Assembly (NCBI RefSeq): GCF_000368585.1
Contig: NZ_KB849558.1
Location: 972,722-1,036,721, forward strand
DNA: 64,000 nucleotides
Source: Acinetobacter venetianus RAG-1 = CIP 110063
GTDB lineage: Bacteria > Pseudomonadota > Gammaproteobacteria > Pseudomonadales > Moraxellaceae
Direction of reading: 5' to 3'
Part shown: positions 35,580 through 39,265 of the stretch, piece by piece
Layout of the letters: each line of letters opens with the position of its first letter
How positions within the stretch are numbered: the first letter of the stretch is position 1
Notes under the pieces: model-generated
The model's input: only the letters and a program-made list of their open reading frames with translations
Databases searched by the model: none
What the model was told of the DNA's origin: nothing
Program-made: the position numbers and the translations under genes

Positions 35580-36539
35580 TTAATTAAAAGGTGCAAGACT
35601 TCTTGAGTAAACAGTAACTTGCCTATCTTTTCTCACCATAGAGCTAGTAAATTGGCGTTTCCGTTCGCTTAAAACAACTTCAATTTGAGCAGTGAAATAA
35701 TTTGATTTGCTATCTAACAGCCCTGCAACATCATTTTTTGTCTGATCCTCAACCCCAGAAAAAGCATTTAACTTCCACAAATCATCAACATTATTAAAAT
35801 AAGTTAAATTAGAGAGTTTTGCTTTTAATTCTTGATCGAGTGCGTTTACATCCACTCTTGGATCTATACTTGCCAATAATAAGGCCGATGCAGTATTCAT
35901 GTTGACTTTAGTTTGCTCTGGTAAAGCCGTCACATAAGGCTTAATCAAATCATAGTTTTTACCTTCAAAGCCTTTGACAAGCTTCAACTCATCAACATTA
36001 TGAAACATTGTATTCGATGCCAAATAAGCAGGATTTAAACCTTGATAATAGTTACTCTCAGCCCCCATAGCACCAGTCGTTTCATCATCACTGTCCTGCC
36101 AATCAATTACAGCCTGACTTAATTCTGCTGGAAGCCCAACTCGCTGCAAAAGTTTTTCAAACCAACGCTTGGCTGCTTCATCAACTTTACCATCAGATTT
36201 AACCAAATTATTCAGGTTAAATTTACCAGATTCATCTAATAAACGACCAGATACAGCACCATCTTCAACTGAAAATGGGGGCATAGGCTTTGCCCAATTT
36301 TCCTGTAAATGATCAATACTGCTGCCGTTATCACTGTCTTGAATCAATAACTCAGAAAAAAAAGCTTCAGCACTCTTGGCATATAGTAAAGACTGATCTT
36401 GCCGCATCAAATATCCTGTATTTTCAGCAGTATTTGATTGTCGCTTTGCGATAGTTGCAGCCAAAATAGTCGCTAAAGCAACCATAACCAAAATCGTTAA
36501 TAATGCAACGCCATGTTGTGATTGATTCTTTATCATCAT
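35580..36539 (-). CDS. gspK: Type II secretion minor pseudopilin GspK
   Basis: Largest minor pseudopilin, expected at the tip of the T2SS pseudopilus. The leader is short (cleavage after G10 in SQHG/VALLTILVM) and the mature +5 residue is Thr, not Glu; absence of Glu5 is a known mark of GspK. A membrane helix covers about residues 11-31, then a large helical periplasmic insert typical of GspK, including VDWQDSDDE-like AVIDWQDSDDE and NMNTASALLLASI. 319 residues. Its ATG overlaps the gspJ stop by one base. Unlike GspH, I and J it lacks the long repeated leader. Confidence 0.93.
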   Translation of the reverse strand: MMIKNQSQHGVALLTILVMVALATILAATIAKRQSNTAENTGYLMRQDQSLLYAKSAEAFFSELLIQDSDNGSSIDHLQENWAKPMPPFSVEDGAVSGRLLDESGKFNLNNLVKSDGKVDEAAKRWFEKLLQRVGLPAELSQAVIDWQDSDDETTGAMGAESNYYQGLNPAYLASNTMFHNVDELKLVKGFEGKNYDLIKPYVTALPEQTKVNMNTASALLLASIDPRVDVNALDQELKAKLSNLTYFNNVDDLWKLNAFSGVEDQTKNDVAGLLDSKSNYFTAQIEVVLSERKRQFTSSMVRKDRQVTVYSRSLAPFN

Positions 36540-37276
36540 TATTGACCATCCTGATTGGTACGAAGCAGACTATAAATCCATTCATAATCTGTTCCTGCTA
36601 CCGTAAGCTGGATTTTCAATCCTAATGGTAGCTTTTTTAGTTCTACTACATTATTTGGATCATTGATATTTTCTGGCCATTGGGTTAATTCTTGAGGATT
36701 CAAAACAGTTACTTTAAATTGATCTACATTTTCAAGCAAAGTACTTGAAACAGGTTGAATACGATTTGGGATATTCAAGTTTGAATATTTAAGTCTATAT
36801 ACTTTTTTCTGTGCCGAATCATAACGATACTCTATTCGCTCATAAGGTGACAAACCTTGCTTTAGAGGATCTGAGACACCCGCCTTACTGAACATAAAAC
36901 TTCTATCGTTGAGCACCAAAGCAGCCTGTATTTGCCTCCCATCATTTGCTGTTAAAGGAATAATTTGCAAACTGTCTCTTAAAATTTGCTGATACGCATC
37001 TTGCAATTCAAATAAATGTGTCTCATGTTCAGCATTACGATCTTTGACTTTAAGCAGATAATCAAAAACCTTCCAACCCATCATTGAAAGCACAGCAAAA
37101 ATTGCGATCGCAACCAACAGCTCCACTAAGGTAAATCCTAAAACTGATTTCTGACGAGCAATGCTCGACCTTACTGCAAAGCAGGGAACTAAGCTTCGAG
37201 TGTTTGAATTAACCAAGTCAAACTTTGGTTGAGCACTAGAAACTGATGAAATACCAAACACATTTTTATTATTCAT
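36539..37276 (-). CDS. gspJ: Type II secretion minor pseudopilin GspJ, long leader
   Basis: Minor pseudopilin of 245 residues. The prepilin peptidase site is G47 in VLG/FTLVE (Glu at mature +5), followed by the membrane helix LLVAIAIFAVLSMMGW and a GspJ-type periplasmic domain (MFSKAGVSDP, ERIEYRYDSAQKKVYRL). A 46-residue stretch before the site is far longer than the usual 6-20 residues; it contains NTRSLVPCFAVRSSIAR, which resembles the leaders of GspI and GspH. The ATG overlaps the gspI stop. No ATG lies closer to the cleavage site. Confidence 0.9.
   Translation of the reverse strand: MNNKNVFGISSVSSAQPKFDLVNSNTRSLVPCFAVRSSIARQKSVLGFTLVELLVAIAIFAVLSMMGWKVFDYLLKVKDRNAEHETHLFELQDAYQQILRDSLQIIPLTANDGRQIQAALVLNDRSFMFSKAGVSDPLKQGLSPYERIEYRYDSAQKKVYRLKYSNLNIPNRIQPVSSTLLENVDQFKVTVLNPQELTQWPENINDPNNVVELKKLPLGLKIQLTVAGTDYEWIYSLLRTNQDGQ
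37137..37258 (-). repeat. Palindromic repeat copy in the gspJ leader
   Basis: This in-frame segment is related to those in gspI and gspH. It contains the palindrome CGAGCAATGCTCG (37155-37167) and AAGCTTCGAGTGT (37192-37204), which matches GAAGCTACACTTCGAGTGT in the gspH copy. It is the most diverged copy. Confidence 0.6.
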
Positions 37277-37782
37277 TATGTTCTAGCTTTTGCTGGATAA
37301 TTAAAAAATACAACATTAGTAATTCCCGCTTCTACTTTGCCTTGATCAGCATTAAATAAGCTAACTTGCAGTTCAATACGTTGTATTTTGGGGCTAATCG
37401 TTGATTGTGCTTTTTTATCAATTTGCCACGTTTCACCTTGAGAGGTCACTTGTTTAGATTGAGTTCCATCTAGCCACTCTTGGTTCATTTCCATCGTGGC
37501 AACTTCATTCATAGCAACAAACTGTGCTTTGGTCCGTAAAATTGCATTTGAAGTCGACTGAGTGTATTGCATCGCTATTTTTGTTAAAGCAATTGCTGCG
37601 ACTGCAAAGATAGCCAATGCGACCATAACTTCAAGCAAGGTAAATCCTGAGACACGATTAAATCGAGCAACGCTTGATCGTGTCGCAAGACGAGAAGCTA
37701 TGCTTTGAGTTGCAGGATGAGCCAAACATAATTTCGTCTGAGTACCTGAAAGAACACTATGTTTTGAGTATCTAATTTTCAT
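37276..37782 (-). CDS. gspI: Type II secretion minor pseudopilin GspI, long leader
   Basis: Minor pseudopilin of 168 residues. Cleavage is expected after G46 (RVSG/FTLLE, Glu at mature +5), followed by the membrane helix VMVALAIFAVAAIALTKIA and a small GspI domain (ending VEAGITNVVFF). The 46-residue leader is unusually long and its last 28 residues (from TQSIASR to RVSG) are the same as those of GspH. The gene overlaps the end of gspH by 11 bases and abuts gspJ, so the four pseudopilin genes form one operon, h-i-j-k. Confidence 0.92.
   Translation of the reverse strand: MKIRYSKHSVLSGTQTKLCLAHPATQSIASRLATRSSVARFNRVSGFTLLEVMVALAIFAVAAIALTKIAMQYTQSTSNAILRTKAQFVAMNEVATMEMNQEWLDGTQSKQVTSQGETWQIDKKAQSTISPKIQRIELQVSLFNADQGKVEAGITNVVFFNYPAKART
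37636..37770 (-). repeat. Palindromic repeat copy in the gspI leader
   Basis: 81 bases at 37636-37716 match 38282-38362 in gspH with five substitutions (94% identity). The imperfect palindrome TCGAGCAACGCTTGA (37663-37677) lies within. The remainder, to 37770, matches the distal gspH copy more loosely (ACTCAGACGAAATT on the coding strand against ACCCAGACAAAATT). Confidence 0.85.
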
Positions 37783-38638
37783 TTACTTTACCCAAGTGAT
37801 CTAACTCGAATTCGTGCCCAATTGCTTGTTGCTGATAATAAAACTGAATCCGAACAGGTTTAACCTCACCATTGCCAAGCCAAATTAACTGAGGTGCCTT
37901 ACCACCCAACAAATCTTCATTGTTAGCTTTTGGATAACTCTCATTATCCAGACTTTCAATGCTAAATGAAACTTGCTCAGGTAGCTGACGTGTTTTGAAT
38001 TCTACATAAGGCTGCCAAGTCCGATCTTCTTGTTGAATTTGTTCTTTGCTCTGATCGTGATATTCAAACAAATTATAGCTAAACGGTGCGACATCAGTCG
38101 CATTCTGTGTATTTAAAGCAAATACCTTAGCTTGATCCGTTGCTTCTTTATTAATCTTTTTTAGATCTAAAATAAACATCTCACGGGCTTGCATCGCTCT
38201 ACGCTGGTCAACACCACCAATATTCAATACAACCAAAGATGCCATAATCGTCATGATCACAATAACGACCATAACCTCAATCAAGGTAAATCCTGAGACA
38301 CGATTAAATCGAGCAACGCTCGATCGCGTCGCAAGTCGAGAAGCTATACTTTGAGTTACAGGCTTAGTTAAACGTTTCTCCCTGAAAAGCCCAGCTTCGC
38401 AAGAAGGCAAAGCTCTATGCTCGAAGTGAGCAAATTTTCGTCGAACAACGCGCGGTTCTACCGCACAAGAAGCTACACTTCGAGTGTGAGGATGAACAAG
38501 ATGAAATTTTGTCTGGGTATTAGACATAGAACTATGCTCAGGGTTGACGCATTTAAATCGAGCATAGCTTGAAACTTTAGCAAACCGAGAAATAAGATGT
38601 CGTTTGCTTCTTTGTCGACTATGCTGCGAGCAGTTCAT
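37772..38638 (-). CDS. gspH: Type II secretion minor pseudopilin GspH with a 116-residue leader
   Basis: Minor pseudopilin with the cleavage site RVSG/FTLIE and membrane helix VMVVIVIMTIMASLVVLNI, then a GspH-type domain (ARE-rich helix, KAPQLIWLGNGEVKPVRIQF). From ATG 38638 the product has 288 residues, with the cleaved Gly at 116; the mature part, about 172, is normal for GspH. The leader is basic, with Arg, Ser, His and Cys, and is made of repeated segments. ATG 38527 is an alternative, still leaving 79 leader residues. No ATG, GTG or TTG codon lies in the last 26 leader residues. It begins 12 bases after the tetR stop. Confidence 0.82.
   Translation of the reverse strand: MNCSQHSRQRSKRHLISRFAKVSSYARFKCVNPEHSSMSNTQTKFHLVHPHTRSVASCAVEPRVVRRKFAHFEHRALPSCEAGLFREKRLTKPVTQSIASRLATRSSVARFNRVSGFTLIEVMVVIVIMTIMASLVVLNIGGVDQRRAMQAREMFILDLKKINKEATDQAKVFALNTQNATDVAPFSYNLFEYHDQSKEQIQQEDRTWQPYVEFKTRQLPEQVSFSIESLDNESYPKANNEDLLGGKAPQLIWLGNGEVKPVRIQFYYQQQAIGHEFELDHLGKVNEN
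38282..38620 (-). repeat. Tandem palindromic repeats in the gspH leader
   Basis: At least two repeat units in frame. Palindromes seen: ATCGAGCAACGCTCGAT (38308-38324), GCGGTTCTACCGC (38452-38464) and ACACTTCGAGTGT (38475-38487). The phrase GCTCGATTTAA on the coding strand occurs twice (38306-38316 and 38553-38563) with matching flanks. No stop codon interrupts the frame. Confidence 0.8.
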
Positions 38639-38650
38639 TGTATTGACCAA

Positions 38651-39265
38651 CTATGTCGTAATTGTTTCAAGTTGCTTCGGCATGGCTAAAGCTTGTTCGA
38701 TATATGCAACTCGCAGAGTATCTCTTGAACCAAGATAACGCTGGTAAAAACTTGAATTGAGAATAACGGCAGCGCCATAAGTCAAAGACCAAATGGATGC
38801 TAAATAATCACGCGTTGTCATCGTACTATTAATATCCAACAAATAGCTTTCTGTCATACGAATAATAATACGCAAACGCTGACGACGAACTTTATATAAC
38901 TCACTAAATAATAGCTGTATACCTTGACCTGTTGTCGATAAACGCTCTTCTATCTGATGAAATAATGCTGTGCGTTCAGGATGATGTAAATGATGCAACA
39001 TAAAGAAAGCCAAATGTTCAGGAAAACTTTTTTCAGTGTCCTGAATCATTTCCAAAAGCATTCGCTCATTACGAATGATTAACAACATATACAATTCATC
39101 TTTACTTTGAAAGTGTTTGTATAATGTGCCTTTGGCAAGATCTAACTCTGCTGCAAGAGCATCCAAGGTCATGCCTGCTTCACCATTTTCTAATAGGAGT
39201 TGCTCAGCGATTTGAAAAATTAATACTTCTCGTGCTCTAAACTGAGCTTGACGATCCATTTTCAC
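38651..39265 (-). CDS. TetR-family transcriptional regulator
   Basis: A 204-residue TetR-type repressor. The helix-turn-helix is at about residues 30-56 (MTLDALAAELDLAKGTLYKHFQSKDEL), and the remainder is the helical ligand-binding and dimer domain. The start is GTG 39265, with GAGAG seven bases upstream; ATG 39259 is also possible. It lies between tatD and gspH on one strand, with gaps of 34 and 12 bases, so it is in a tatD-tetR-gspHIJK string. Its target is not evident; self-control of this string is possible. Confidence 0.88.
   Translation of the reverse strand: MKMDRQAQFRAREVLIFQIAEQLLLENGEAGMTLDALAAELDLAKGTLYKHFQSKDELYMLLIIRNERMLLEMIQDTEKSFPEHLAFFMLHHLHHPERTALFHQIEERLSTTGQGIQLLFSELYKVRRQRLRIIIRMTESYLLDINSTMTTRDYLASIWSLTYGAAVILNSSFYQRYLGSRDTLRVAYIEQALAMPKQLETITT

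Follow-up and report, generated by a model that had tools for sequence, protein, structure and literature searches.

Why three adjacent pseudopilins should be made with leader peptides of up to 116 residues is the question raised by a 64,000-nucleotide stretch of the Acinetobacter venetianus RAG-1 genome (the window, by which the whole analysed stretch is meant). Its minus strand carries gspH-gspI-gspJ-gspK, genes of a type II secretion system (T2SS), and, counted from the in-frame ATG, the glycine in front of the prepilin cleavage site, Gly(-1), is residue 116 of GspH (ATG at 38638), residue 46 of GspI and residue 47 of GspJ but residue 10 of GspK, a reading in which the preliminary description of this DNA and the present analysis agree. 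In their mature parts, operon order and cleavage motif GspH, GspI and GspJ are ordinary T2SS minor pseudopilins, whereas orthologues with short leaders have ~5-14 residues before the cut. The explanation that we consider likely is that the long leaders are a small mobile hairpin DNA repeat, inserted repeatedly at the prepilin cut, of which the encoded peptide is removed and tolerated.

The gspH gene (37772..38638, minus strand, as are all features of the window given here) begins with a leader of 116 codons (38291..38638) that comprises several repeat modules and ends in TCA GGA, encoding Ser-Gly; a palindromic element copy of type A occupies 38292..38356. The ATG of gspI (37276..37782) overlaps the gspH stop codon, and the gspI leader of 46 codons (37645..37782) holds another type A copy (37646..37710). 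The 47-codon leader (37136..37276) of gspJ (36539..37276) ends in Leu-Gly and contains a diverged copy (37137..37201) of which the right end is decayed; no element is seen in the 10-residue leader of gspK (35580..36539). A covariance model of the element (R1), with a training set that included the copies of gspH (E 1.5e-19) and gspI (E 9e-21), also finds the gspJ copy, which was outside that set, at E 1e-5. A 108-nt repeat common to the H and I leaders has 90% identity and reaches into the mature coding part, and the J version has 61%, which bears out the earlier observation that the three leaders can be aligned with one another. Comparison of positions 36500-38800 with Rfam 15 returned zero families at E<=1. 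Among the encoded proteins, GspI (53.2 bits; cut-off of TIGR01707, 44.35), GspJ (70.7 bits; cut-off of TIGR01711, 64.85) and GspK pass their NCBIfam cut-offs; GspH falls under that of TIGR01708 (72.6 versus 80 bits) and is named from its best family match (E 3.8e-20, the next family being at 2.2e-6) and its operon position. A search of solved structures with GspH returned solely a GspG chain (E 0.0044).

In its commonest form the leader unit, ~60-65 bp in size, consists of a small first hairpin, ACTCGAAGC-ATA-GCTTCTCGT, followed by CTTGCG, a bulged stem, a three-base loop and CTCAGG. Two types differ in the spacer from CTTGCG to CTCAGG (32 or 31 bases), and the main hairpin comprises two helices, 17 pairs in all, a bulge and a loop of 3. 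Out of 98 pattern matches, 77 had 31 or 32 bases between the motifs and 70 were distinct; seven of the 70 (the first match of locus L074, and L154, L146, L147, L159, L140 and L085) were dropped from the model alignments, leaving 34 copies of type A and 29 of type B, in leaders and elsewhere. The alignments start mostly with ACTC and finish with CTCAGG; that CTTGCG and CTCAGG never vary follows from the selection of copies by a pattern that required both. Scored on the same sequences from which the structure was derived, 94.1% (type A) and 87.5% (type B) of cells are paired, both sides of a pair have changed in 65 and 95 cells, respectively, and the covariation score of both types was attained by none of 500 shuffles, while the count of pair types was not raised in type B (371 of 500 shuffles were as high). 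One-sided changes are scarce (9 cells in type A and 5 in type B), which fits folding as DNA better than folding as RNA.

Long leaders are not limited to the gspH-K operon, because the H leader, used as a DNA query against the A. venetianus genome, matched not only the I leader but also a similar one in gspG (149.4 bits; NCBIfam cut-off 88.85), on an unlinked contig directly after a GspF-like gene. Weak DNA matches within the same genome in L013 and L016 were judged to be due to chance, and seven of the eight other PF07963 matches in the genome were read and have leaders of ~6-15 residues. In a genus set of one genome per species, GspI was matched in 106 of 119 genomes (13 gave no GspI match) and all 106 loci were read. 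Leaders of at least 30 residues, measured from the longest in-frame ATG, were found in 9 of the 106 for GspH, 47 for GspI and 28 for GspJ. Leader length spans 5 to more than 100 residues and differs even between near relatives: in three genomes (G003, G079 and G027) the mature GspI is 94% identical to that of A. venetianus, yet the leader has six residues. On a FastTree tree of the three short mature proteins, the minimum number of changes between long (at least 25 codons) and short states is 4 for H, 14 for I and 14 for J. Three of the 318 H/I/J leaders have no in-frame ATG and were excluded from the leader statistics; on inspection, gspI of G018 and gspJ of G044 carry GTG in its place. The third, gspI of G086 (L121), has element copies in a frameshifted leader and stop codons in the mature part, and is likely a pseudogene.

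The position of the element relative to the cleavage codon is fixed. Among 64 leader copies, 61 terminate exactly at the Gly(-1) codon as TCA GGN, which places Ser-Gly at -2/-1; the other three are upstream tandem units and were excluded from the stop-codon count and the nearest-copy comparison given below. Ser-Gly ends 78 of the 88 long H/I/J leaders, and leader copies are held by seven kinds of prepilin, namely GspG, GspH, GspI, GspJ and what we take, from the motif, to be PilW-like, PilE-like and FimT/U-like proteins. An NCBIfam scan of four proteins of the PilW/PilE/FimT-U-like kinds gave prepilin-type matches and no equivalog above its cut-off. In 63 copies outside leaders, CTCA is retained in 60, and the next two bases are GG in 49, TA in 9 and TC in 2. 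Of 223 leaders under 20 codons long, 202 have a Gly(-1) codon that starts with GG; the Phe-Thr that follows Gly(-1) is encoded with an invariant TT.AC in 315 genes. The 3' end of ahpC, another site of the element, was tried as a source of filled and empty sites. In genomes with zero (11) or one to three (9) R1 matches, 17 of 20 ahpC ends read ...QPN, the others being one QPD, one QPEQD and one (G016) unreadable by the pattern; the QPEQD end, of G046, has no visible element, contrary to a simple filled/empty-site reading. Among the 30 best ahpC loci, CC|TGA is found in 27, some of which show no evident element after it, and the other three (G021, G117 and G056) have CCAGAA and no element. From the variable bases after CTCA and from the ahpC ends we infer that the element ends in CTCA and that the GG at the junction CTCA|GG belongs to the target, a wording chosen because the ahpC comparison has these exceptions.

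Start codons and reading frames make it very probable that translation begins at the upstream start and takes in the long leader. The H, I and J genes of the window have no ATG, GTG or TTG 3 to 25 codons before the cleavage site, the nearest candidate upstream of the cut being a TTG, 40 codons away in H and 27 in both I and J; with these three, 55 of the 88 long H/I/J leaders have no start codon in that range, and an internal start with a Shine-Dalgarno-like match occurs in 2 of the 88. The gspI ATG (the in-frame ATG nearest the gspH stop was taken) lies at -11, -14 or -4 relative to that stop in 47 of 49 genes with long leaders and in 55 of 55 with short ones, and translation of the leader is argued because this start codon stays over the gspH stop. 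The preliminary description had named the start codons of orthologues as the point on which its long leaders might fall; the start position is kept with long and short leaders alike, and the long leaders stand. TCAGG stands at the cut in 89 H/I/J genes; in 87 of them the frame runs unbroken from an in-frame ATG, and in gspI of G018 from a GTG in that position. The sole gene that is not open, gspI of G086, is broken in its mature part as well. Stop codons in the leader register are found in none of 61 leader copies versus 16 of 63 other copies, and no broken leaders were hidden by sorting on open frames, because none of the 63 other copies is followed by a prepilin motif in any frame. For GspG, theoretical masses of 18,549 Da before and 14,360 Da after processing and a mobility shift that requires pilD are given for A. 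nosocomialis M2 in an excerpt of PMC4713064. The GspG of A. seifertii, which has an element leader, has a computed mature mass of 14,360 Da, the same as the published M2 value; the figure of 18,549 is matched by no full-length mass that it could have, the comparison being one of masses and not of the M2 sequence.

The peptide itself appears to matter little. In 24 pairs of leaders of equal length and at least 75% identity, which are non-independent as several share a genome, the ratio of nonsynonymous to synonymous differences (pN/pS) is 0.75 in leaders versus 0.09 in mature parts and pS is 0.18 versus 0.46; therefore the peptide is hardly constrained, and the DNA is either young or under constraint. 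Net positive charge is common to all 88 long leaders; it is in keeping with a leader in the cytoplasm but may be a by-product. The earlier suggestion that such leaders alter membrane targeting or offer a cytoplasmic interaction surface finds no support in a peptide that is almost unconstrained and of which the length varies from 5 to more than 100 residues within the genus and also between near relatives.

Copies of the element are dispersed well beyond the prepilin genes. At E<=0.01, R1 matches 100 of the 119 genus genomes, 1-20 times each, and in a family sample it matches 21 of 61 genomes, in 6 of 16 genera including Acinetobacter. In the other genera (g7, g9, g10, g12 and g13) there are up to 23 copies per genome, and none of four loci read from them lies in a prepilin leader. 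Of the 150 listed genus matches 127 were classified (67 + 60 loci; 23 unclassified): 64 are in prepilin leaders, 36 are intergenic, 18 lie at the 3' end of an open reading frame (ORF) on the opposite strand and nine are elsewhere. A. venetianus has 17 R1 matches at E<=0.1, of which six are in the leaders of gspG (3), gspH, gspI and gspJ; most of the others that were read lie between genes or at their ends, including four that belong to a single tandem array, and a gene interior holds just one weak match (E 0.01). Four of the 11 A. venetianus loci at E<=0.01 fall in ~12 prepilin genes, for which the chance under random GG sites is ~2e-11, a rough figure that assumes independent insertions and a guessed 12% of usable sites.

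Several copies outside leaders deserve separate mention. The A. venetianus array (L167, ~1310-1570; G000:C1:143462-143714) has four R1 matches, is partly N and is flanked by what we take to be recN-like and rlmB-like genes. G021 has six element copies of equal score, and the two that were read, L189 and L192, adjoin what may be ribosomal RNA operons. In many species the element forms the 3' end of an ahpC-like peroxiredoxin gene (L137, L138, L146, L305, L310 and L356-L385), giving C-terminal PE, PEQG and so on, with the stop codon coming from the element or from its start. Intergenic copies (L166, L155, L143 and similar ones) form subfamilies of their own, and several non-leader copies that end in CTCATA have an alike right flank in different species, which in L166 is near a minD-like gene.

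Comparison of sister species indicates that leaders grow and shrink by whole units. G056 and G117 have 98-99% DNA identity over the mature parts of H, I and J, and the G056 leader is longer by one 60-bp unit, directly ahead of CTCAGG, both in gspI (65 versus 45 codons) and in gspJ (61 versus 41 codons); G037 is likewise one unit longer than G058 in gspI (97 versus 77 codons). Therefore units come and go in the arrays stepwise, with the reading frame preserved. The idea that units are always added beside the cleavage site was dropped, since G067/G074, G084/G053 and G007/G108 differ further upstream, as is expected of losses between repeats. The leader copies are also related to one another across genes: for 54 of 61 of them, every copy outside leaders is more distant than the nearest copy in the leader of another prepilin gene, with a mean best match of 0.89 versus 0.80, and the GspG copy of G085 and the GspI copy of G025 are 98% identical. 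These likenesses between DNA copies point to a subfamily of the element that is dedicated to prepilins and passes between prepilin genes, either through transposition into a common target or through recombination at the GGNTTTAC that these genes share.

A mechanism that would join the element, its paired structure, its fixed register, its repeated gain and loss, the conserved start and the open frame, all read from DNA, is the following. On entering a prepilin gene, the hairpin repeat would come to lie with its CTCA end against the GG of the Gly(-1) codon, which puts Ser-Gly in front of the cut; translation beginning at the upstream start codon would run through the copy along with the rest of the leader; PilD, the prepilin peptidase, would cut off the whole leader, leaving the mature pseudopilin unchanged; selection on the gene, not on the peptide, would keep the element in frame; and one subfamily would reside in prepilin leaders and move from one prepilin gene to another. 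Because removal by PilD would leave the mature protein unchanged, the leader would be a safe home for a selfish or neutral repeat, where insertions probably do little harm, and such tolerance would be the cause of its persistence. A further proposal, that the subfamily homes to the prepilin cleavage codon of many prepilin genes, inserting before GG and read in one frame, with the host peptidase erasing the peptide everywhere, is put forward tentatively and with some doubt.

Several points weigh against this mechanism. R1 was trained mainly on leader copies, with CTTGCG and CTCAGG demanded by the pattern that supplied the training set, and the share of copies in leaders is therefore biased upwards. 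Leaders are not the sole coding home of the element, because in G028 (L349) and G006 (L350) a copy on the reverse strand (~900-963) contributes ~21 residues in frame near the C-terminus of what we take to be an E1/ThiF-like, tcdA-like protein, the single clear case of a coding copy away from prepilins and gene ends. The unit gains are imperfectly clean, in that a few bases next to the junction also differ, and no clear target duplication is seen at the unit-difference pairs in which they do. Seven of the 61 leader copies are not nearer to a leader copy of another gene, three being ties and four being nearer to a non-leader copy. Upstream starts of long leaders seldom have a Shine-Dalgarno-like match, 15 of 88 doing so, as do 58 of 227 starts of short leaders. 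Some GspG element leaders (L302, L303, L318, L322 and L327) have an ATG six codons before the cut that is formed inside the element, and therefore GspG of those species may have a normal short leader. Finally, the PF01797 (Y1_Tnp) profile has no match in the A. venetianus genome and no transposase was identified, PF01797 being all that was sought; a Y1 transposase of the kind associated with repetitive extragenic palindromic (REP) sequences was therefore set aside as the mobilizer.

The same GspG starts favor the reading in which translation begins near the cut and the repeats are untranslated 5' regulatory hairpins or inert, as do an ATG 3-25 codons before the cut in 20 of the 88 long H/I/J leaders and the statement, in an excerpt of PMC3733652, that many REPs at ORF N-termini may be extragenic. 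This reading is very unlikely given that most long leaders, the three of the window among them, have no start codon in that range, that an internal start with a Shine-Dalgarno-like match is so rare, that the overlapping gspI start is kept in position and that, in 88 of the 89 element-ended H/I/J leaders, the frame runs unbroken from an upstream ATG or GTG. If instead the hairpins or the basic peptides were selected, for tuning the pseudopilin ratio through the mRNA or for holding the precursor at the membrane, then the low pS of the leaders, the paired changes that preserve the hairpins and the uniform positive charge would be explained, and we regard this as unlikely but not as remote as the alternative just described. 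The length and even the presence of the leaders shift between near relatives; the scarcity of one-side changes beside two-sided ones fits DNA more than RNA; and copies outside leaders, among them some of those in the model alignments (L141; L137, L138, L144, L161 and L162), pair in the same way, so that the structure is a property of the element.

The preliminary description had offered two origins, spread by duplication and conversion within the operon or repeated in-frame insertion of one element, and the latter is favored by the dispersed copies, the fixed register in seven kinds of prepilin and the 60-bp gains. A single origin with spread solely by duplication or gene conversion among neighboring pseudopilin genes is suggested by the likeness of some leader pairs of one genome, 88-93% over the last 60 nt (93% between H and I of A. 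venetianus and between I and J of G115, 90% between H and J of G094), and by the H/I repeat that runs on into the mature coding part. The likeness of H/I/J leaders within genomes is only weakly raised, however, 44 of 1000 permutations being as high, and confinement to the operon leaves the copies in gspG and in PilW-, PilE- and FimT/U-like genes, at intergenic sites and at gene ends without explanation. As the sole cause, duplication or conversion is disfavored, and we consider it highly improbable, although conversion may have added to the effect of insertion. Small imperfect bulged palindromes that supply ORF ends, as REPs do in the account excerpted from PMC3733652, are also what would be expected of an ordinary REP, or of a REP doublet forming a hairpin (REPIN), moved by a REP-associated tyrosine transposase (RAYT). 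This is quite unlikely, since PF01797 is found in 22 of 119 genomes (20 above the cut-off), A. venetianus not among them, whereas R1 is found in 100 of 119, and since GTAG is present at neither end of the element in the alignments.

Repeated insertion of a tolerated element has its nearest known parallels in Rickettsia palindromic elements (RPEs) and REPs, with which the kinship is one of manner. Like the element described here, which forms a multi-copy palindrome within one genome and inserts in frame into coding sequence, RPEs are small palindromic DNAs in frame in coding genes with an apparently tolerated peptide, and they enter many unrelated genes (excerpts of PMC10969869 and PMC3733652), whereas here almost every coding copy seen is placed at the cleavage codon of a prepilin, in a single register, and belongs to a leader-specific subfamily; the likeness is one of description and not of compared sequences. 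REP/REPIN sequences of the GTAG class with RAYT share short bulged hairpins, a mostly intergenic location near gene ends and the ability to supply stop codons, and REPs can lie in ORFs (PMC3733652, in part); the present element differs in having no GTAG end, two hairpins, 1-20 copies per genome by R1 and no PF01797 match in A. venetianus. CGTC-tagged REPs, for which the excerpt of PMC3733652 gives no dedicated transposase, some intragenic copies and an identity of those of R. conorii with RPE-4 and RPE-6, have a CGTC end, stems of 8-9 bp and loops of 4-5; the element here has CGTC at neither end, 17 pairs in two helices, a bulge and a loop of 3. MITEAba12 is likewise a small non-autonomous mobile DNA of Acinetobacter but has 111-114 bp, terminal repeats shared with ISAba12 and 9-bp target duplications (PMC6382973, in part). 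A partial literature search, by titles and the openings of abstracts, found no description of the element or of the leaders. The element is set apart from both RPEs and REPs by its tie to one processing site.

The finding would mean that mobile DNA can hide cheaply inside genes, within a stretch of protein that the cell cuts off. Sister species that have gained or lost single units at a known site make insertion, target choice and translation of small palindromic elements open to test, and habitual "correction" of leader length or start codon in Acinetobacter pseudopilins is to be avoided. The leaders also bear on what leader length is accepted by PilD and by the route of membrane insertion. 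If homing to the cleavage codon is true, the element would correspond, at the level of protein, to an intron or intein, in which the leader peptidase of the host takes the place of splicing of its own.

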